Below are positions 5,182 through 12,148 of a DNA stretch of 64,000 bases, piece by piece. The DNA lies in the NCBI RefSeq assembly GCF_000756715.1, contig NZ_CCSE01000001.1, forward strand, positions 2,076,001-2,140,000. Reading direction: 5' to 3'. The first letter of the stretch is position 1; each line of letters starts with the position of its first letter. A program made the position numbers and the translations under genes. The notes under the pieces are model-generated. The model was not told the DNA's origin. It did not search any database and saw nothing but the letters and a program-made list of their open reading frames with translations. The stretch comes from Jeotgalicoccus saudimassiliensis. GTDB taxonomy: Bacteria; Bacillota; Bacilli; Staphylococcales; Salinicoccaceae.

Positions 5182-5234
5182 GGTTCACCCCGTGTTTAAT
5201 GTAAGTACTTTATTATAACAAGAATTTTCTGACA

Positions 5235-5263
5235 TTGAAAGAAACTGTACTGTTGTTTATAAT
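5235..5263 (+). promoter_or_regulatory. sigma-A type promoter before the 5-oxoproline region
   Basis: TTGAAA at 5235-5240 and TATAAT at 5258-5263 with a 17-base spacer. It would drive the small SRPBCC-like gene at 5332 and, since the next gaps are short and no terminator is visible, probably the whole operon to 12065. Confidence 0.6.
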
Positions 5264-5331
5264 CATAACTGTATACGGTTTCAAATAACAGTGATATGAA
5301 AGTAAAATACTTGGGAAACAGGGTGGAATTA

Positions 5332-5763
5332 ATGGAACTTCAATTACAATTGTATTTTTATCATCGGGAAATAGATAAAACACCTGCGGAAATTTTCAGA
5401 ACGGTTGACAGCGACGAGGCACTGTTAAAAGGTATTGAAAAATTAACTGATATTGAATATCTCAACGGTGCATTAAATTCACGTGAAGCGGGTACAAAAG
5501 GTATATTACGATATGGTGATTCGCCTGTCGAAACTGAGATTACCAGTTATACAAAGAACAGAAGAATTGAGCTTAAAAAAGAAATAACTGCCGGGACGCT
5601 CGTGACAATGTTTAATGTCGTTCCGGTTGAAGACCGTTCGGAAGTGACAATATCGACGAAGCTGTTTACGGATTCTGCAGCGACATTTGCAGTCTATGCA
5701 CTGAAGATTCCAAGAATTAAAAAACAGTTTAACCAGAATATGGAGCGACTCGAAAACAGTTAA
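5332..5763 (+). CDS. small SRPBCC/START-like protein
   Basis: 143 residues. The pattern of an early strand with an aromatic run (LQLYFYHREIDKTPAEIF), a long beta-rich middle and a C-terminal helix (PRIKKQFNQNMERLENS) suits the SRPBCC (polyketide-cyclase-like) ligand-binding fold, but no motif proves it. The start at 5332 is chosen because GGTGG lies five to six bases before it; the ATG at 5296 has no such site. It is first in line before pxpB (34 bases apart) and could be cotranscribed with the operon. No ligand can be named. Confidence 0.55.
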   Translation: MELQLQLYFYHREIDKTPAEIFRTVDSDEALLKGIEKLTDIEYLNGALNSREAGTKGILRYGDSPVETEITSYTKNRRIELKKEITAGTLVTMFNVVPVEDRSEVTISTKLFTDSAATFAVYALKIPRIKKQFNQNMERLENS

Positions 5764-5797
5764 CGGAGTTATGCATTGAACGGAAGGGAGCATGACC

Positions 5798-6526
5798 ATG
5801 GAAGTAAAACAGTATGCGGAAGATGCACTGACAATTAATCTCGGCAGCGAAGTTGATGAGCGGATCAACAGACAGCTGGTTCAGCTGAAAAATGCTGTCA
5901 CCGGGCTCGGGCAGGAAGGCATCACAGATATCGTTTTATCCTATACGAGTCTAATTATTTATTTTGATGTGCTGAAAGCCGACGTAAAAAAAATAACGAA
6001 AGCAGTTCAGAAGCTCAATATGGATGAGCTGGAAGACCGGGAATATACATATAAAACCGTTAAAATACCTGTATGCTACGGCGGGGATTTCGGACCGGAT
6101 CTCGGACTTTTTAAAGAGAACGGCCTGACTCCGGATGAAGTCATCCGGATGCACAGCAATACAGAGTACCTTGTCTATATGCTTGGATTTATGCCGGGAT
6201 TCCCGTTCCTTGGGGGACTCAGCGAGAAGCTGCATAAAGCCAGACTTGATTCACCGCGTACAAATATCCCGGCAGGCTCGGTCGGCATCGGCGGGCGTCA
6301 GACAGGTATGTATCCGTTTGATTCCCCGGGCGGCTGGAATCTGCTCGGCAGAACACCGATACCGCTTTATGACAGTGAACGGGAGAATGCGATTCTCTAC
6401 GAAGCCGGAGACAGAATTATCTATATACCGATAGATGAAAAGGAGTACTGCCGTATAAAAAATGCGTATGCAGACGGTGAGTACACGGTGGAAGTCGAAA
6501 CAAGAGGTGAAGAGCATGGCGCTTAA
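5798..6526 (+). CDS. pxpB: 5-oxoprolinase subunit B (KipI-like, AHS1 domain)
   Basis: With PxpA and PxpC it forms the ATP-dependent 5-oxoprolinase that opens pyroglutamate to glutamate. The conserved family block MLGFMPGFPFLGGL is near residue 130, followed by RTNIPAGSVGIGGRQTGMYP, which is diagnostic of the KipI/AHS1 family. The ATG at 5798 fits the GGGAG site (eight bases away) better than the ATG at 5792, which abuts it. The 3' end overlaps pxpC by 11 bases. In Bacillus subtilis the homologue was first named KipI, an inhibitor of sporulation kinase A; no such partner is expected in a non-sporulating coccus. Confidence 0.9.
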   Translation: MEVKQYAEDALTINLGSEVDERINRQLVQLKNAVTGLGQEGITDIVLSYTSLIIYFDVLKADVKKITKAVQKLNMDELEDREYTYKTVKIPVCYGGDFGPDLGLFKENGLTPDEVIRMHSNTEYLVYMLGFMPGFPFLGGLSEKLHKARLDSPRTNIPAGSVGIGGRQTGMYPFDSPGGWNLLGRTPIPLYDSERENAILYEAGDRIIYIPIDEKEYCRIKNAYADGEYTVEVETRGEEHGA

Positions 6527-7505
6527 AATTATTAATCCGGGACTTTTTACGACTGTACAGGATTTAGGCAGGTACGGTTATGAATCATACGGTTTCACAC
6601 CTGCGGGGGTCATGGACTATGAAAGCTTTTATCTCGCGAATGCACTGCTCGGCAACAGTAATGATACCGCTGTGCTCGAGATGACTCTTTACGGGGTAAC
6701 TTTTGAAGTGCTGCACAGTACAAGCATGGCAACAGCAGGCGCATTGATGGAACTGACAATTAACGGTGAACCTTATAATACAGGAACCGCGCTCGATCTT
6801 GTTAAAGGGGACATCGTGAAGTTTGGCGGAGTAAAATCAGGCGCCCGTACATATGCAGCTTTCAGCGGCGGACTGGATCTGCCGAAGGAGCTCGGCAGCT
6901 ATTCCACACATACGCGAAGCAAAATGGGCGGCTTTAAAGGCCGGGTGCTTGAAGCAGGGGACGTTTTACCGGTTAAAGGTAAAATTGTTGAGCACAATTT
7001 TAGAAGCATTCGGAAAGAAAAAGCTGAAGGTACTGAAATCCGGTTTATTCCGGGACAGCAGTATGACCGTTTCACAAAAGACAGCAGACTCGCTTTTGCA
7101 GACAGTGAATATACAGTAACAAAAGACAGTGACCGGATGGGGGCCAGACTTGAAGGTACGGTACTGGAGTCATCCGACGCTGACGATATATTAAGTGAAC
7201 CGACGCAGTTTGGCAGTATTCAGGTACCGAAAAACGGTCAGCCGATTATTCTGCTGGCAGATCGCCAGACAGCGGGCGGCTATAAAAAAATCGGTACAGT
7301 TGCCAAAGTGGACCTGCCTAAAATTGCCCAGAAAAAGCCGGGTGAAAAAATTACATTTACAGAAATCAGTGTGGAAGAAGCATCCGGTTTATACAAAGAC
7401 AGCCTGAAAGCACTGACTGACGGGACTTACATTGAAACTTCAGTGAAATTTAATAATGCGAGAAGACGGGATGCTTTAAGCATTGCGCAATTAATGGAGG
7501 GCTAA
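6516..7505 (+). CDS. pxpC: 5-oxoprolinase subunit C (KipA-like, AHS2 domain)
   Basis: Partner of PxpB. The family opening TTVQDLGRYGYESYGFTPAG is at residues 11-30, and the block IILLADRQTAGGYKKIGTV near residue 248 is the second conserved region. Start ATG 6516, with AGGTGAAG just upstream, inside the end of pxpB (translational coupling). AHS1 and AHS2 together resemble the carboxyltransferase part of urea carboxylase, which matters here because biotin carboxylase and biotin carrier genes follow directly. Confidence 0.9.
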   Translation: MALKIINPGLFTTVQDLGRYGYESYGFTPAGVMDYESFYLANALLGNSNDTAVLEMTLYGVTFEVLHSTSMATAGALMELTINGEPYNTGTALDLVKGDIVKFGGVKSGARTYAAFSGGLDLPKELGSYSTHTRSKMGGFKGRVLEAGDVLPVKGKIVEHNFRSIRKEKAEGTEIRFIPGQQYDRFTKDSRLAFADSEYTVTKDSDRMGARLEGTVLESSDADDILSEPTQFGSIQVPKNGQPIILLADRQTAGGYKKIGTVAKVDLPKIAQKKPGEKITFTEISVEEASGLYKDSLKALTDGTYIETSVKFNNARRRDALSIAQLMEG

Positions 7506-7509
7506 CGCA

Positions 7510-7935
7510 ATGAATTATAAGGAAATTAAAAAACTGGTTAAATTACTGAAAGAAGAGGACCTTGCTGTACTGAGTGTTTCGGACAATGACACGTACATTC
7601 ATATCGAACAGAAAAACAGCGGTACTGTAACGGAGCAGTCTTCGCCTGCTTTTGAGCCGGCAGGAACTGAAGCGGCGTCTTCGGGGCTTGTTGAGATTAC
7701 AGCGGGACAAATTGGTACATTTTATAATCAGAAAGATGAAAACAGTGATGAAACATTTGTTTCAGAAGGCAGTAAAATATCCAAAGGAGACCAGGTTGGA
7801 TTTATCGAAGCGATGAAAGTGTTCAACGACGTGAAAAGCGATGTATCCGGAACAGTTGAAGAAATTGCTGTCAGTAACGGGGACGCTGTTGAATTCGGTG
7901 ACGTACTGATTCGCGTGCGTCCGGAGGAGGCGTAG
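7510..7935 (+). CDS. accB: biotin carboxyl carrier protein (AccB-like)
   Basis: 141 residues. The C-terminal biotinyl domain has the motif FIEAMKVFNDVKSDVSG near residue 100, where the Lys of AMK would be biotinylated by BirA; the usual Met after AMK is Val. The N-terminal segment (YKEIKKLVKLLKEEDLAVLS) is like that of AccB, and a Ser/Pro/Ala-rich linker joins the parts. It is four bases after pxpC and three before accC. This may be a second copy devoted to the 5-oxoproline operon rather than the fatty-acid enzyme. No carboxyltransferase genes of the AccA/AccD type are nearby. Confidence 0.9.
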   Translation: MNYKEIKKLVKLLKEEDLAVLSVSDNDTYIHIEQKNSGTVTEQSSPAFEPAGTEAASSGLVEITAGQIGTFYNQKDENSDETFVSEGSKISKGDQVGFIEAMKVFNDVKSDVSGTVEEIAVSNGDAVEFGDVLIRVRPEEA

Positions 7936-7938
7936 CAG

Positions 7939-9285
7939 ATGAAGAAAGTTTTGATTGCGAACCGCGGAGAAATTGCCGTAAGAATTATCCGGACGCTGAA
8001 GGAAATGAATATTGCGAGTGTTGCCGTATACTCGAGCGGTGATAAGGACAGCCTGCATGTTGCCCTGGCTGACGAAGCATATTGTATCGGCGGACCGAAA
8101 AGCAGCGACAGCTACTTAAATATCGACAACATTCTGCAGGCGGCACTGATGAGTAAAGCGGATGCGGTTCATCCCGGCTACGGTTTCTTATCTGAAACAC
8201 CTGAATTTGCCGAACGGACTGAAGCACTCGGTTTGATTTTCATCGGGCCGTCAGCTGAAACGATGGCGAAAATGGGAAATAAATCGATGGCCCGTCAGAC
8301 GATGGAAAAAGCGGGTGTACCTGTCATTCCGGGCAGTGATGGTATTGTCGAATCAAAAGATGAAGTGAAAAAGCTCGCTGCAGAGATCAGCTACCCGATA
8401 GTGATTAAAGCTGTTTCTGGCGGCGGGGGTAAAGGAATGCGCTTTGCCCACAGCGATGAAGATGTAAATAAGCTGTACGATGAAGCGAAAAAAGAAGCGA
8501 AGACTTCTTTCAACGACGACCGGCTGTATATAGAGAAGTACATTCCAAAAGCACGACATATTGAAATACAGGTGATTGGTGATGGTAAAGGCGGAGCGGT
8601 TCATTTATTTGAACGCGACTGCACGATTCAGAGAAATAACCAGAAGCTGCTGGAAGAAGCACCGGCTGTTATTTTAAGTGACAAAGAGCGCAGCGACATT
8701 ACAGAAACGACACGACAGGCTGTTGCGAAACTGAATTACCGCGGAGCCGGCACGATTGAATACTTATATGTCTCAGCAGAAAAACGTTTTTACTTTATCG
8801 AAATGAACACCCGTGTGCAGGTGGAACATACGGTTTCGGAAGAAGTAACAGGGATGGATATTATCAAAGCACAGATAAACGTGGCATTTAACAGTGAAAT
8901 CGGATTTACACAAAACGAAGTAAAACTTACAGGTCATGCGATTGAAGCGAGACTGAATGCGGAAGATCCGGAAAACCGCTTTATGCCGTCACCGGGTAAA
9001 ATTGAAAAGCTGCATTTCGGTCAGGGCAGAAATGTCCGCATAGATACTCATATTTACAACGGTTATTCGATTCCGCCGTACTATGATTCAATGATAGCGA
9101 AAGTAATCGTAAAAGCTGAAAATCGTGAAGATGCACTGTATAAACTGAAGCTCGTTCTTGGTGAAACAGTCATTGAACCGATAAAAACCAATTTGGATTT
9201 CCAGTATTATCTGCTCGGTCATCCGAAAGTTTCAGAGAATGATTACGATATTAAGTTTATCCATACCGAGAATATTATTGAGTAA
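7939..9285 (+). CDS. accC: biotin carboxylase (AccC-like)
   Basis: ATP-dependent carboxylation of biotin on the carrier protein. 448 residues, normal length. The N-terminal domain begins KKVLIANRGEIAVRIIRT, the ATP-grasp glycine loop is KAVSGGGGKGMR near residue 157, and the catalytic block EMNTRVQVEHTVSEEVTG is near residue 290, followed by the C-terminal domain MPSPGKI. All expected residues appear intact. Neighbours on both sides are 5-oxoprolinase genes, so the carboxyl acceptor may be 5-oxoproline or a related amide through PxpB and PxpC; this is inference. Confidence 0.92.
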   Translation: MKKVLIANRGEIAVRIIRTLKEMNIASVAVYSSGDKDSLHVALADEAYCIGGPKSSDSYLNIDNILQAALMSKADAVHPGYGFLSETPEFAERTEALGLIFIGPSAETMAKMGNKSMARQTMEKAGVPVIPGSDGIVESKDEVKKLAAEISYPIVIKAVSGGGGKGMRFAHSDEDVNKLYDEAKKEAKTSFNDDRLYIEKYIPKARHIEIQVIGDGKGGAVHLFERDCTIQRNNQKLLEEAPAVILSDKERSDITETTRQAVAKLNYRGAGTIEYLYVSAEKRFYFIEMNTRVQVEHTVSEEVTGMDIIKAQINVAFNSEIGFTQNEVKLTGHAIEARLNAEDPENRFMPSPGKIEKLHFGQGRNVRIDTHIYNGYSIPPYYDSMIAKVIVKAENREDALYKLKLVLGETVIEPIKTNLDFQYYLLGHPKVSENDYDIKFIHTENIIE

Positions 9286-9297
9286 AGGATGATTTCT

Positions 9298-10062
9298 TTG
9301 AGTAAATTAACAATCGATTTAAATGCAGATCTGGGAGAGAGTTTCGGAAATTATAAAGTCGGCAGTGATGCGGAAATTATTCCACTCATTTCATCTGCAA
9401 ATGTCGCGTGCGGATTTCATGCCGGTGATCCCGCAGTGATGATTGAAACCGTAAAACGCATTAAGGCTTCAGGAACGACAGGTCTTGGTGCACATCCCGG
9501 TTTTCCGGATTTAATGGGATTCGGACGCCGTTATATGGAATTATCAGATGATGAAGTGTACAGCATTATGCTGTATCAGCTGTCTGCACTGGACGGCATT
9601 GCGCGTACGAACGGATTGAAACTCAATCATGTGAAGCCGCACGGTGCACTGTACAATGCAACATTTAAAAACGAAAATCTGGCACGTGTTATTGCGAAGT
9701 CTGTTAAAGACTTTAATCCTGAACTTAAGCTGATGGGGCTTGCGAACAATAACCTTGTTAAAGCAGGAAAAGAAATCGGCCTCGCAGTGGTCAATGAAGT
9801 ATTCGCTGACAGGGGATACGAAGATGACGGTACACTTGTGTCCCGAAGTAAAGAAGGTGCGATGATTACTGACAGTACACTGGCAACAGAACGAGTAGTA
9901 CGTATGATCACAGAGGGTAAAGTGGAAAGTATTAACGGAAATGATGTAGATATTCAGGCTGACAGTATATGCGTTCACGGCGATGGTGAAAAGGCATTGG
10001 AGTTTGTAAGGGAAATCAGAAACCAGCTGGAAGCGAAAGGGATTTCTATCGAAACGTTATAA
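9298..10062 (+). CDS. pxpA: 5-oxoprolinase subunit A (LamB/YcsF family)
   Basis: Third subunit of 5-oxoprolinase. Opens with the family signature IDLNADLGESFGNYKVG and continues NVACGFHAGDP, GLGAHPGFPDLMGFGRR and HVKPHGALYN, the conserved Asp, His and Arg blocks of LamB/YcsF proteins. A TTG start at 9298 is preferred because AAAGGATG sits seven to nine bases upstream; the ATG at 9289 lies inside that site. The gap to accC is 12 bases and to the transporter gene 15 bases. Length of 254 residues is normal. Confidence 0.9.
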   Translation: MSKLTIDLNADLGESFGNYKVGSDAEIIPLISSANVACGFHAGDPAVMIETVKRIKASGTTGLGAHPGFPDLMGFGRRYMELSDDEVYSIMLYQLSALDGIARTNGLKLNHVKPHGALYNATFKNENLARVIAKSVKDFNPELKLMGLANNNLVKAGKEIGLAVVNEVFADRGYEDDGTLVSRSKEGAMITDSTLATERVVRMITEGKVESINGNDVDIQADSICVHGDGEKALEFVREIRNQLEAKGISIETL

Positions 10063-10077
10063 TTAAGGGGTGCAATT

Positions 10078-11289
10078 ATGGATAATAAACCGAGAATGAC
10101 AGCCGCACAGCGCAGACTGCTGTTCGGTGCAGTGTTCCTGATGGCGACATCGTCTATCGGGCCTGCATTCTTAACACAGACAACAGTTTTTACACAGCAG
10201 TTTATGGCGAGCTTTGCCTTTGCAATTGTAGCATCCATAGTCATTGATATTGGTGCGCAGCTGAACATCTGGCGCGTCCTGTCAGTGAGCGGGAAACGCG
10301 GTCAGGATGTAGCAAACGAAGTATTTCCGGGACTCGGCTCATTCGTAGCTGTCCTGATTATTATCGGGGGCTTCGCATTTAATATAGGTAACGTGGCCGG
10401 TGCGGGCCTCGGTTTCAATGCGATTTTCGGCTGGGATGTACGCATAGGAGCCGCAATTACGGGTGTTATCGCAATTATTATATTTTTAATTAAAAATGGC
10501 CGCGCAGTTATGGATATTGTCACACAGGTACTCGGTGTGCTGATGATTGGTATCGTTACATATGTAATGATTATTTCAGAGCCTCCGGTCGGTGAAGCAG
10601 CGAAACGTGCTGTTCTTCCGGAAGAGCCGCTGACGATGCTTCTGCCGATTATTACTTTGGTCGGCGGTACGGTTGGAGGATATATTACGTTCGCCGGTGC
10701 CCACCGACTGATTGAAGCGGGTATGACAGGTGAGAAGAACCTCCGTTTTGTAAGTCACTCAGCCAACTGGGGTATTTTAACTACCGGTGTCATGAGGGTG
10801 CTGCTGTTTATGGCAGTACTTGGTGTTCTGACACAGGGCGCCGTTTTATCAGAAGAAAATCCGCCGGCTTCAGTATTTGAATTCGCACTCGGCGATATCG
10901 GAATGAAAATTTTCGGTGTAGTGCTTCTTGCTGCCGCGTTATCTTCAGTAATCGGTGCAGCATTTACAAGTGCGAGCTTTATGCGTTCATTTAACAAAGT
11001 ATTTGACCGCTATAACAATATTGTTATCGTTGTATTTATCGCAACATCGACATTAATCTTCTTATTCGTCGGGCGTCCGGTAACACTGTTAATACTGGCA
11101 GGTTCGTTCAACGGACTGATTCTGCCGATCACACTTGGTGCGATACTTCTCGCATCACGCAAAAAGAGCATCGTTGGAAATTACCACCATCCGACATGGA
11201 TGATTGTATTTGGTGTTATTGCTGTAATCGTTACGTTAATCGCAGGATTTATGTCGCTTCAGGGTCTTGCAGACTTATGGAATGGATAG
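10078..11289 (+). CDS. ycsG: NRAMP-related membrane transporter (YcsG-like)
   Basis: 403 residues with about eleven membrane segments. It belongs with YcsG, the NRAMP-superfamily protein of the B. subtilis ycsF-ycsG-ycsI-kip cluster. In metal-carrying NRAMP proteins the first segment has a DPGN motif; the matching part here reads SSIGPAFLTQTTVF and lacks it. A metal is therefore an unlikely substrate. The operon suggests uptake of 5-oxoproline or a precursor, or counter-ion movement; neither is shown by sequence. RBS AGGGG precedes the ATG. Confidence 0.8.
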   Translation: MDNKPRMTAAQRRLLFGAVFLMATSSIGPAFLTQTTVFTQQFMASFAFAIVASIVIDIGAQLNIWRVLSVSGKRGQDVANEVFPGLGSFVAVLIIIGGFAFNIGNVAGAGLGFNAIFGWDVRIGAAITGVIAIIIFLIKNGRAVMDIVTQVLGVLMIGIVTYVMIISEPPVGEAAKRAVLPEEPLTMLLPIITLVGGTVGGYITFAGAHRLIEAGMTGEKNLRFVSHSANWGILTTGVMRVLLFMAVLGVLTQGAVLSEENPPASVFEFALGDIGMKIFGVVLLAAALSSVIGAAFTSASFMRSFNKVFDRYNNIVIVVFIATSTLIFLFVGRPVTLLILAGSFNGLILPITLGAILLASRKKSIVGNYHHPTWMIVFGVIAVIVTLIAGFMSLQGLADLWNG

Positions 11290-11297
11290 GTGATTAA

Positions 11298-12065
11298 ATG
11301 AACACTGAAAGCATCAGAATGGCAATCAGAAACGGTGAGCATTCAGGACCGACTTCAGGTATTTCCGGGGATAAAGTACAGGCAAACCTGGCAATACTGC
11401 CAAAAGAATATGCATTTGATTTCCTGTTATTTGCGATGCGCAATAATAAGCCAGTACCGATTATTGAAGTGCTGGAAGCAGGGGGATTTGTCAGCAGGTA
11501 TGCAAAAAACTCGGACATCCGTACGGATGTCCCGCTTTACAATATTTATAAAGACGGTGAACTTTTGGAAACGGTCAGTGACATTACAAATTACTGGCGC
11601 GACGACTTTGTAACATTTTTAATCGGCTGCAGTTTTACGTTTGAACAGGCAATACTTGATGCCGGCATTAATATTAAACATATTGACGAAGGCCGCAATG
11701 TCGCAATGTACAAAACGAATATTAAAACTGAACCGGCCGGCATCTTTTCAGGTGACACGGTTGTATCGATGCGTCCTTTTAAAAAGGAACTTGTCGATAA
11801 GGTTACAGAAATTACAAATGAGTTTCCGAACATGCACGGCGGACCTGTGCATGCAGGTGATCCGGCTGCAATCGGCATAGAAGACATCGATGCTCCGGAC
11901 TACGGCGATGCAATTGAAATTGCACCGGATGAAGTTCCGGTATTTTGGGCATGCGGAGTCACACCTCAAAATGTGGTACTGAATGCGAAACCTGAAATTT
12001 TAATCAGCCATGCGCCGGGACATATGTTTATTACAGATATTAATAATGAGGAATATAAAAACTGA
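11298..12065 (+). CDS. ycsI: DUF1445 / putative hydro-lyase (YcsI-like)
   Basis: 255 residues matching the YcsI family (DUF1445): SGPTSGISGDKVQANLAILP near residue 14, CSFTFEQAIL near residue 110, MRPFKKELVD, HGGPVHAGDP and a C-terminal AKPEILISHAPGHMFITD. The family contains the mammalian mitochondrial D-glutamate cyclase, which forms 5-oxo-D-proline from D-glutamate. A role in D-glutamate or 5-oxo-D-proline metabolism is thus a fair inference given PxpABC in the same operon. Last gene of the operon, with a strong terminator directly after. Confidence 0.85.
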   Translation: MNTESIRMAIRNGEHSGPTSGISGDKVQANLAILPKEYAFDFLLFAMRNNKPVPIIEVLEAGGFVSRYAKNSDIRTDVPLYNIYKDGELLETVSDITNYWRDDFVTFLIGCSFTFEQAILDAGINIKHIDEGRNVAMYKTNIKTEPAGIFSGDTVVSMRPFKKELVDKVTEITNEFPNMHGGPVHAGDPAAIGIEDIDAPDYGDAIEIAPDEVPVFWACGVTPQNVVLNAKPEILISHAPGHMFITDINNEEYKN

Positions 12066-12066
12066 G

Positions 12067-12091
12067 AAACCGGGCTTTTGCCCGGTTTTTT
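12067..12091 (+). terminator. rho-independent terminator of the 5-oxoproline operon
   Basis: Eight-base stem AACCGGGC / GCCCGGTT with a TTTT loop, then a T-run. Ends the operon two bases after the ycsI stop codon. Confidence 0.9.
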
Positions 12092-12148
12092 GTGCTTTTT
12101 AGAGTAAATATGCCTTAAAAACGTACAATAAAGTAAATAATTTAAGTA

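Follow-up and report, generated by a model that had tools for sequence, protein, structure and literature searches.

The window analysed here is a stretch of 64,000 nucleotides from Jeotgalicoccus saudimassiliensis (G000:C1:2076001-2140000 of a one-contig genome of 2.19 Mb), and all positions are given in its own numbering unless stated otherwise. Between positions 5798 and 12065 it carries seven genes on the + strand, in the order pxpB-pxpC-accB-accC-pxpA-nramp-DGC, which touch or overlap and form a single tight operon. Three of them encode the subunits of a prokaryotic 5-oxoprolinase (PxpABC), two a biotin carboxyl carrier protein (BCCP; AccB) and a biotin carboxylase (BC; AccC), and the last two a transporter of the NRAMP family and a protein of the D-glutamate cyclase (DGC) family. 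Glutamine and glutamate inevitably give rise to 5-oxoproline, a damaged amino acid that 5-oxoprolinase reopens. Judging from comparison across genomes, biotin pairs linked to 5-oxoprolinase genes in this manner probably work with that enzyme rather than for fat synthesis. An earlier note on this DNA, made from its letters alone, had drawn attention to the tight linkage of the first five genes and had proposed a split urea-carboxylase-like enzyme; the linkage is confirmed, with all genes on the + strand and every family identified by profile search, and comparative evidence couples AccBC to PxpBC, in keeping with the tie that the note had drawn.

Genes of the operon

The first gene of the set, pxpB (AHS1, CT_C_D; 5798..6526), scores 204.4 bits in TIGR00370, against a cut-off of 145.6, and matches PF02682; an earlier ATG at 5792 is also possible. 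It overlaps by 11 bases with pxpC (AHS2, CT_A_B; 6516..7505; TIGR00724, 301 bits against a cut-off of 230; PF02626), whose start at 6516 was picked from the sequence, the first ATG of the frame being at 6462. In the equivalog model NF045499, narrower than TIGR00724, PxpC reaches 240 bits against a cut-off of 500 that may not cover accepted Bacillota PxpC. The structural model of PxpC (pLDDT 89.8) finds its best match in chain A of 5DUD, E. coli YbgK (300 aligned residues, Z 39.4, rmsd 2.0), and is close to urea amidolyase of K. lactis as well (5I8I; Z 37.8, rmsd 2.1, 306 aligned residues), both matches extending along most of the model. After a gap of 4 bases follows accB (7510..7935; PF00364, 64 bits against 22.1), which in TIGR00531 remains, with 88.6 bits, below the cut-off of 115.2, and 3 bases further on accC (7939..9285; NF006367, 655 bits against 597; PF02785), with 621.5 bits in TIGR00514, below the cut-off of 626.5.

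Another gap of 3 bases separates accC from pxpA, which encodes the LamB/YcsF lactamase subunit (9289..10062; NF003814, 353 bits against 226; PF03746). The NRAMP-family transporter gene, of the YcsG/PxpT type, begins 15 bases later (10078..11289; PF01566, 83 bits against 29.8), and the YcsI-like gene of the DGC family follows after 8 bases (11298..12065; PF07286, 225 bits against 25; NF003969). In the accessible portions of the respective papers, PxpT is interpreted as serving 5-oxoproline uptake (PMC13274462) and YcsG as a manganese importer (PMC10448178).

Integrity of the biotin proteins

The biotin lysine of AccB, Lys103 (codon 7816-7818), lies in an intact EAMKVFN motif, through which AccB would be expected to accept biotin. 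AccC retains K115, K157, H207, K236, E274, E288, N290, R292 and E296 within the expected motifs, residues that correspond to the active site of E. coli biotin carboxylase. The full set of carboxylase parts that had been described for this locus is thus indeed present: BC, BCCP and AHS1/AHS2 modules are all found, as separate, unfused open reading frames (ORFs), with the biotin lysine and the biotin carboxylase motifs intact.

Of the 47 AccB rows that follow pxpC, whether separate or fused, 45 carry E[AV]MK; locus L102 has ESMK, and the remaining row is part of the fused urea carboxylase of L125. Compared with locus L134, accB and accC have dN/dS values of 0.07 and 0.04, respectively, and are under purifying selection. 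Nine of the 110 columns that are invariant among 24 unlinked AccC sequences differ in more than half of the 44 linked ones. A 'housekeeping' AccC is here merely one whose gene does not adjoin pxpC; rows L184, L195 and L196, first labelled in this way, are operon copies and were removed from the motif counts and from the test on the AccC tree.

Distribution and origins of the linked operon

PxpB is found in 121 of 398 genomes of the phylum, and regions were retrieved for 118 of the 120 PxpB genomes other than the window's (G051 and G297 were left out, and not every second copy was taken); some of these regions are cut off by the end of a contig, and purpose-made profiles served to score the links, so that links may be missed. 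Among the 118, separate-gene linked operons occur in three genomes (G174, G248 and G380), fused urea carboxylase in G327 and G367, and a carrier-like gene alone in G280. PxpB occurs throughout the window's family (33 of 33 genomes), and because 30 of these have accB-accC behind pxpC, the arrangement is not due to chance. We further considered 80 named loci, an uneven sample made up of the best by PxpC of at least 570 confirmed candidates, of which Jeotgalicoccus aerolatus is the closest (78%). Twelve of these are linked: two from the window's family, six from Clostridia (L202, L206 and L229 from Lachnospiraceae, L210 from Clostridiales, L212 from Roseburia and L275 from Anaerostipes), one from Pelosinus (L215), one from Bacillus sp. 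(L235) and two from Paenibacillus (L244 and L274).

After merging of identical sequences, 227 different PxpBC pairs were kept; among these, L200 and L133 lie on contigs of equal length, as do L201 and L152. AccC accompanies 46 of the 227, in 44 cases as a separate gene and in two as part of a fusion. The order pxpB-pxpC-accB-accC is found in 44 of the 44 scored separate-gene linked loci, with pxpC always the upstream neighbour of the biotin genes. Pelosinus propionicus (L215) has two pxpBC pairs in one locus, with accB behind only one of them and accC 1.7 kb after accB, two ORFs lying between; it stands outside the 44, and its linked pair, first scored as unlinked owing to this spacing, is treated as linked in the trees and in the residue counts given below. 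In another locus, L138 (G404:C25), the pxpB frame seems broken into two pieces with internal stops, and pxpC, accB, accC and pxpA still match.

On a PxpBC tree of 66 rows, the linked label requires seven changes (by a quick method), and forcing the linked pairs into a single clade costs 370 log-likelihood units (p 1.6e-6). A single linked clade is also rejected on the AccC tree, in a test that counts the Lys-type locus L143 (see below) as linked, and one origin of the linked operons is therefore rejected by both. The AccC of L076/L096/L130, L235, L244, L274 and L215 share a clade (98) with 21 of the 25 unlinked AccC rows; the window's group and the Clostridia group fall outside it, beside L192 and L193 (support 83). 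We use only the separation of these two groups from the rest, since their placement varies by method. From this separation it follows that different accBC pairs reached the slot behind pxpC, which suggests that biotin pairs joined 5-oxoprolinase gene sets more than once. The counts of changes do not separate gain from loss; the AccC tree speaks for gains. The PxpBC branches of the family members free of accBC are longer (1.33 for L141 and 1.47 for the stem of L153/L154, versus 0.06-0.52 for the linked tips).

These results bear on the notion of accBC as a neutral passenger that joined by chance and is retained through co-transcription. Most sampled PxpABC loci do without accBC, as such a passenger would allow, but separate origins into the same place and order, the intact biotin motif and the low dN/dS values speak against it, and we regard it as highly improbable.

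Linked biotin pairs and fatty acid synthesis

The earlier note had raised the case in which the linked pair is the only accBC of the genome and serves fatty acid synthesis. A sole pair is ruled out: a second accBC lies at ~801.9-803.5 kb of the genome (PF00364 and PF02785), and no third biotin carboxylase was found by PF02785. There is one accA/accD, whose matches, the only ones in the genome, lie at ~1,064.7-1,066.2 kb, ~1 Mb from the operon, and no AccA/AccD partner is encoded inside the operon. The linked and the other copy are 52% identical in AccC and 33% in AccB. The S. aureus biotin carboxylase structure, 2VPQ, is closer to the non-linked AccC (68.8%) than to the linked one (50.2%).

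One could still imagine AccBC as an additional biotin carboxylase/carrier pair at the service of acetyl-CoA carboxylase, produced alongside a glutamate-yielding enzyme and without contact with PxpBC. The single accA/accD could be shared with the linked pair, and the accB and accC of an S. aureus operon have been interpreted as fatty acid synthesis genes in the consulted sections of PMC11315280. Against this stand the separate accBC pair, the low identity of the linked AccB to its counterpart, and the distance of accA/accD, whereas pxpC is the immediate upstream neighbour in every scored linked locus.

Metagenome-assembled genomes (MAGs) offer a further view, in particular three of Lachnospiraceae and one of Clostridiales (G432-G435), where profile search found no AccA, AccD or FabD and the linked accBC is kept. 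In each of G432, G433 and G434, biotin carboxylase is matched only once, on a contig identified by its length as that of the pxp operon, and G435 has the linked one plus a second within a 1143-aa frame. Matches to AccA/carboxyltransferase models amount to one distant MmdA relative each in G432-G434 (359-381 bits, cut-off 998.8) and to none in G435; near the relative lies a sodium-decarboxylase beta gene in G433 and an OadA/pyruvate-carboxylase-B-type gene in G434. Provided that the assemblies are near-complete, an acetyl-CoA carboxylase role of the linked accBC appears unlikely in these four genomes. AccA and FabD are both present in two further linked genomes, G430 and G431. G380, G174, G248 and G436 have FabD and no true AccA/AccD match, their sole AccA or PF01039 matches being MmdA-sized (and checked as MmdA relatives in G380, G174 and G248); there the linked pair might serve malonyl-CoA via another carboxyltransferase, which is a point for the acetyl-CoA carboxylase explanation. 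Overall, we find that explanation unlikely for the operon.

A different kind of contact is brought up by PDB entry 9YX5, whose title announces a Mycobacterium smegmatis long-chain acyl-CoA carboxylase complex with MSMEG_0435-MSMEG_0436 bound. According to the entry's title, chain names and sequences, its chains include the M. smegmatis homologues of PxpB and PxpC as well as AccA3, and its AHS1 chain aligns with an arginine at the position discussed in the next section. A literature search found no paper describing the structure. PxpBC might dock in a non-catalytic role on complexes of biotin carboxylase and carrier, which it would regulate or hold so that carboxylase activity follows the nitrogen state; the operon would then keep the two partners side by side. 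Nitrogen limitation raises MSMEG_0435 2.4-fold and MSMEG_0436 2.2-fold, as given in the available extract of PMC4617892, which would suit such a role. On the other side, no AccAD-kind acyl-CoA carboxylase that could be regulated was found in G432-G435, and pxpA and the transporter remain beside the genes; we hold this docking role to be quite unlikely.

The urea carboxylase lysine

In urea amidolyase of K. lactis, Lys1605 is described, in the part of the study at hand, as most likely the essential general base of the carboxyltransferase (PMC5770610). The window's PxpB has an arginine at this position, Arg151 (numbering from 5792; codon 6242-6244). The column is lysine in 3/3 urea carboxylase rows and in L143, L145, L102 and L018, and arginine throughout the window's group (30 of 30 rows). 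Among the biotin-linked operons with separate genes, arginine is found in 43 of 45 (the 30 and 13 others, L143 and L145 being the exceptions), and among unlinked PxpB rows in 177 of 180, where the exceptions are L018 and L102 with lysine and one gap. The 180 are 174 unlinked rows (173 with arginine, one gap) together with L018, L102, L141, L153, L154 and both rows of L215, whose linked pair was moved; L141, L153, L154 and both L215 rows all have arginine. In the alignment, arginine also occupies this column in E. coli YbgJ, B. subtilis KipI and MSMEG_0436. A split urea carboxylase in the strict sense is ruled out by this residue, so that of the enzyme first proposed for the locus the modules stand, all present and apparently intact, and the likeness of the carboxyltransferase to that of urea carboxylase does not extend to its lysine.

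Lys-type sets do exist. G407 and G408 have two operons each, the common Arg-type and a Lys-type pxpB-pxpC-accB-accC-pxpA (L143 on G407:C8 and L145 on G408:C4), and in the latter AccB is short, with a matched stretch of ~83 aa. This Lys-type set would be a better candidate for a split urea-carboxylase-like enzyme than the window's operon. At locus L102 (G280:C51:154600-169300), a biotin-carrier-like gene (VESMKMENEI) comes after a Lys-type pxpA-pxpB-pxpC, and the genome has no biotin carboxylase match.

A proposed biotin-coupled 5-oxoprolinase

We propose that the enzyme encoded here is a prokaryotic PxpABC 5-oxoprolinase in a biotin-coupled form, with a relay from AccBC to PxpBC to PxpA, and would put the chances of this reading at about even. 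It is drawn from the conserved gene order, the separate origins, the intact motifs, the persistence of the linked accBC in MAGs where the search for a fatty-acid carboxylase gave none, and 9YX5. In this relay, AccC would carboxylate the biotin on AccB, using ATP and bicarbonate; carboxylated AccB would swing to the PxpBC heteromer, which would transfer the carboxyl to the 5-oxoproline lactam, at either N or O, and thereby activate it; and PxpA would open the activated ring, the carboxyl being lost as CO2 and glutamate being formed. The docking of AccB on the window's PxpBC, the transfer of the carboxyl to 5-oxoproline and the site of that transfer are the steps that we infer. The NRAMP and DGC genes may serve uptake or the same substrate pool.

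Several observations weigh against this proposal. Unlinked loci prevail, with 116 of 154 scored loci (L129, L094, L073 and L168 were dropped from the scoring, having no usable PxpB-PxpC pair) and 68 of the 80 named ones, and within the window's family L141, L153 and L154 (G398, G416 and G417) are pxp operons without accBC. PxpB lacks the lysine of urea carboxylase, and earlier FastTree trees of AccC place the window's and the Clostridia groups differently. No completeness is stated for G430-G442, which touches on the argument from G432-G435. A MAG of Lachnospiraceae whose pxpBC is unlinked, G442, contains FabD but lacks any match to biotin carboxylase (its AccA matches are weak only and lie in full-length carboxyltransferase frames), from which it follows that assembly gaps or other malonyl-CoA routes occur. 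G318, G361, G396, G021 and again G442 have PxpBC without any biotin carboxylase match, and in the 2017 work of Niehaus recombinant B. subtilis PxpABC is said to work without added biotin proteins. Biotin is thus probably dispensable for the PxpBC core, and AccBC would add to, or replace a step of, an enzyme that is probably self-sufficient. Finally, residues that mark linked PxpBC (columns 85% conserved in the 174 unlinked rows and no longer kept in two or more of the five linked groups) number none in PxpC and six weak ones in PxpB, with conservative or scattered changes. With no clear shared change, AccBC looks added to an ordinary PxpBC. A C-terminal extension of PxpC was considered as a docking mark and rejected, as lengths overlap between linked and unlinked rows.

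The absence of any PxpC column shifted in at least two linked groups, and hence of a sign of a new substrate, also speaks against an AccBC-PxpBC enzyme that carboxylates another amide or lactam (e.g., hydantoin, a ureide or 5-oxo-D-proline), with PxpA and the transporter handling the product. Such chemistry would be urea-carboxylase-like, the presence of a DGC family gene suggests D-glutamate/5-oxo-D-proline, and L143 and L145 are examples of a separate Lys-type operon that includes accBC and pxpA; yet transporter and DGC genes of the same families also occur in unlinked operons, and we consider another substrate very unlikely.

A broader form of the biotin-coupled proposal is that all PxpABC 5-oxoprolinases carboxylate the lactam, with PxpBC as the carboxyltransferase and the carboxyl coming from carboxybiotin where linked AccBC or mycobacterial AccA3 is at hand and otherwise from ATP and bicarbonate. 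We are doubtful of it; were it true, carboxylation would drive lactam hydrolysis throughout the family. If AccBC drives PxpBC, a biotin route for amide opening exists beyond urea breakdown, the AHS1/AHS2 fold gains a common chemistry, and accBC copies of this type have been wrongly assigned to fatty acid synthesis, as may have happened in one study of S. aureus. The named genomes allow a direct test of whether AccBC and PxpBC act together. The literature search, with most subscription papers outside its reach, found no experimental test of the accBC part.

Flanking gene and regulatory signals

Upstream of pxpB lies a small SRPBCC/polyketide-cyclase-like gene on the + strand (5296..5763; PF10604, 21.3 bits, below the cut-off of 27.4), which is probably the first gene of the transcript. 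Among the retrieved loci, tblastn finds it in the window and nine others (L133-L140 and L200), all of the window's genus. It lies between pxpB and a candidate promoter, TTGAAA-17-TATAAT (5235..5263, + strand), which agrees with 11 of 12 consensus positions and, with 18 promoter-type sites observed across the region and 13.2 expected, is a pattern match only. An intrinsic terminator at 12063..12092 (+ strand; 13 pairs, a 4-base loop and a T-rich tail) is likewise a pattern match. A CodY-box-like site at 5223-5237, overlapping the promoter-like site, was set aside as evidence: it has three mismatches, and the window holds 11 such matches for 6.2 expected. In S. aureus, pxpBCA is raised in a codY mutant, according to the accessible text of PMC11261909.

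Comparison with known systems

With the PxpABC systems of B. subtilis (ycsF-kipI-kipA), E. coli (ybgJKL) and C. glutamicum (pxpTABC) the window's operon shares the same three subunits and, from what the sources at hand show, a YcsG/PxpT-type transporter, which goes with them in both B. subtilis and C. glutamicum, as well as ycsI, which does so in B. subtilis; unlike plain PxpABC, it includes a biotin carboxylase and a biotin carrier. Urea carboxylase, in K. lactis and in the bacterial fused forms L116 and L125, has the same BC, AHS2, AHS1 and BCCP modules, whereas in the window they are separate chains, with arginine for Lys1605 and pxpA in place of allophanate hydrolase. Adjacent two-gene relatives of the carboxyltransferase of urea carboxylase, of then unknown function, had already been noted by Lombard and Moreira (PMC3199775, in the section available). 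Caprolactamase CapAB resembles the proposed enzyme as an ATP-using lactam opening that needs bicarbonate, and its authors consider a carboxylated lactim; CapAB differs as a member of another protein family, not similar to PxpABC according to its authors and without biotin, and they add that earlier oxoprolinase work reports no bicarbonate need (all from the accessible part of PMC8453981). The M. smegmatis complex 9YX5 likewise brings PxpC and PxpB homologues, the latter with arginine, together with a BC-BCCP protein, AccA3, which unlike the window's pair is an acyl-CoA carboxylase subunit, as far as title, chain names and aligned sequence tell. The six-gene operon of S. aureus, with a CcpE-bound promoter, also unites pxpB, pxpC, pxpA, accB and accC, by the excerpt of PMC11315280, where accBC was assigned to fatty acid synthesis.

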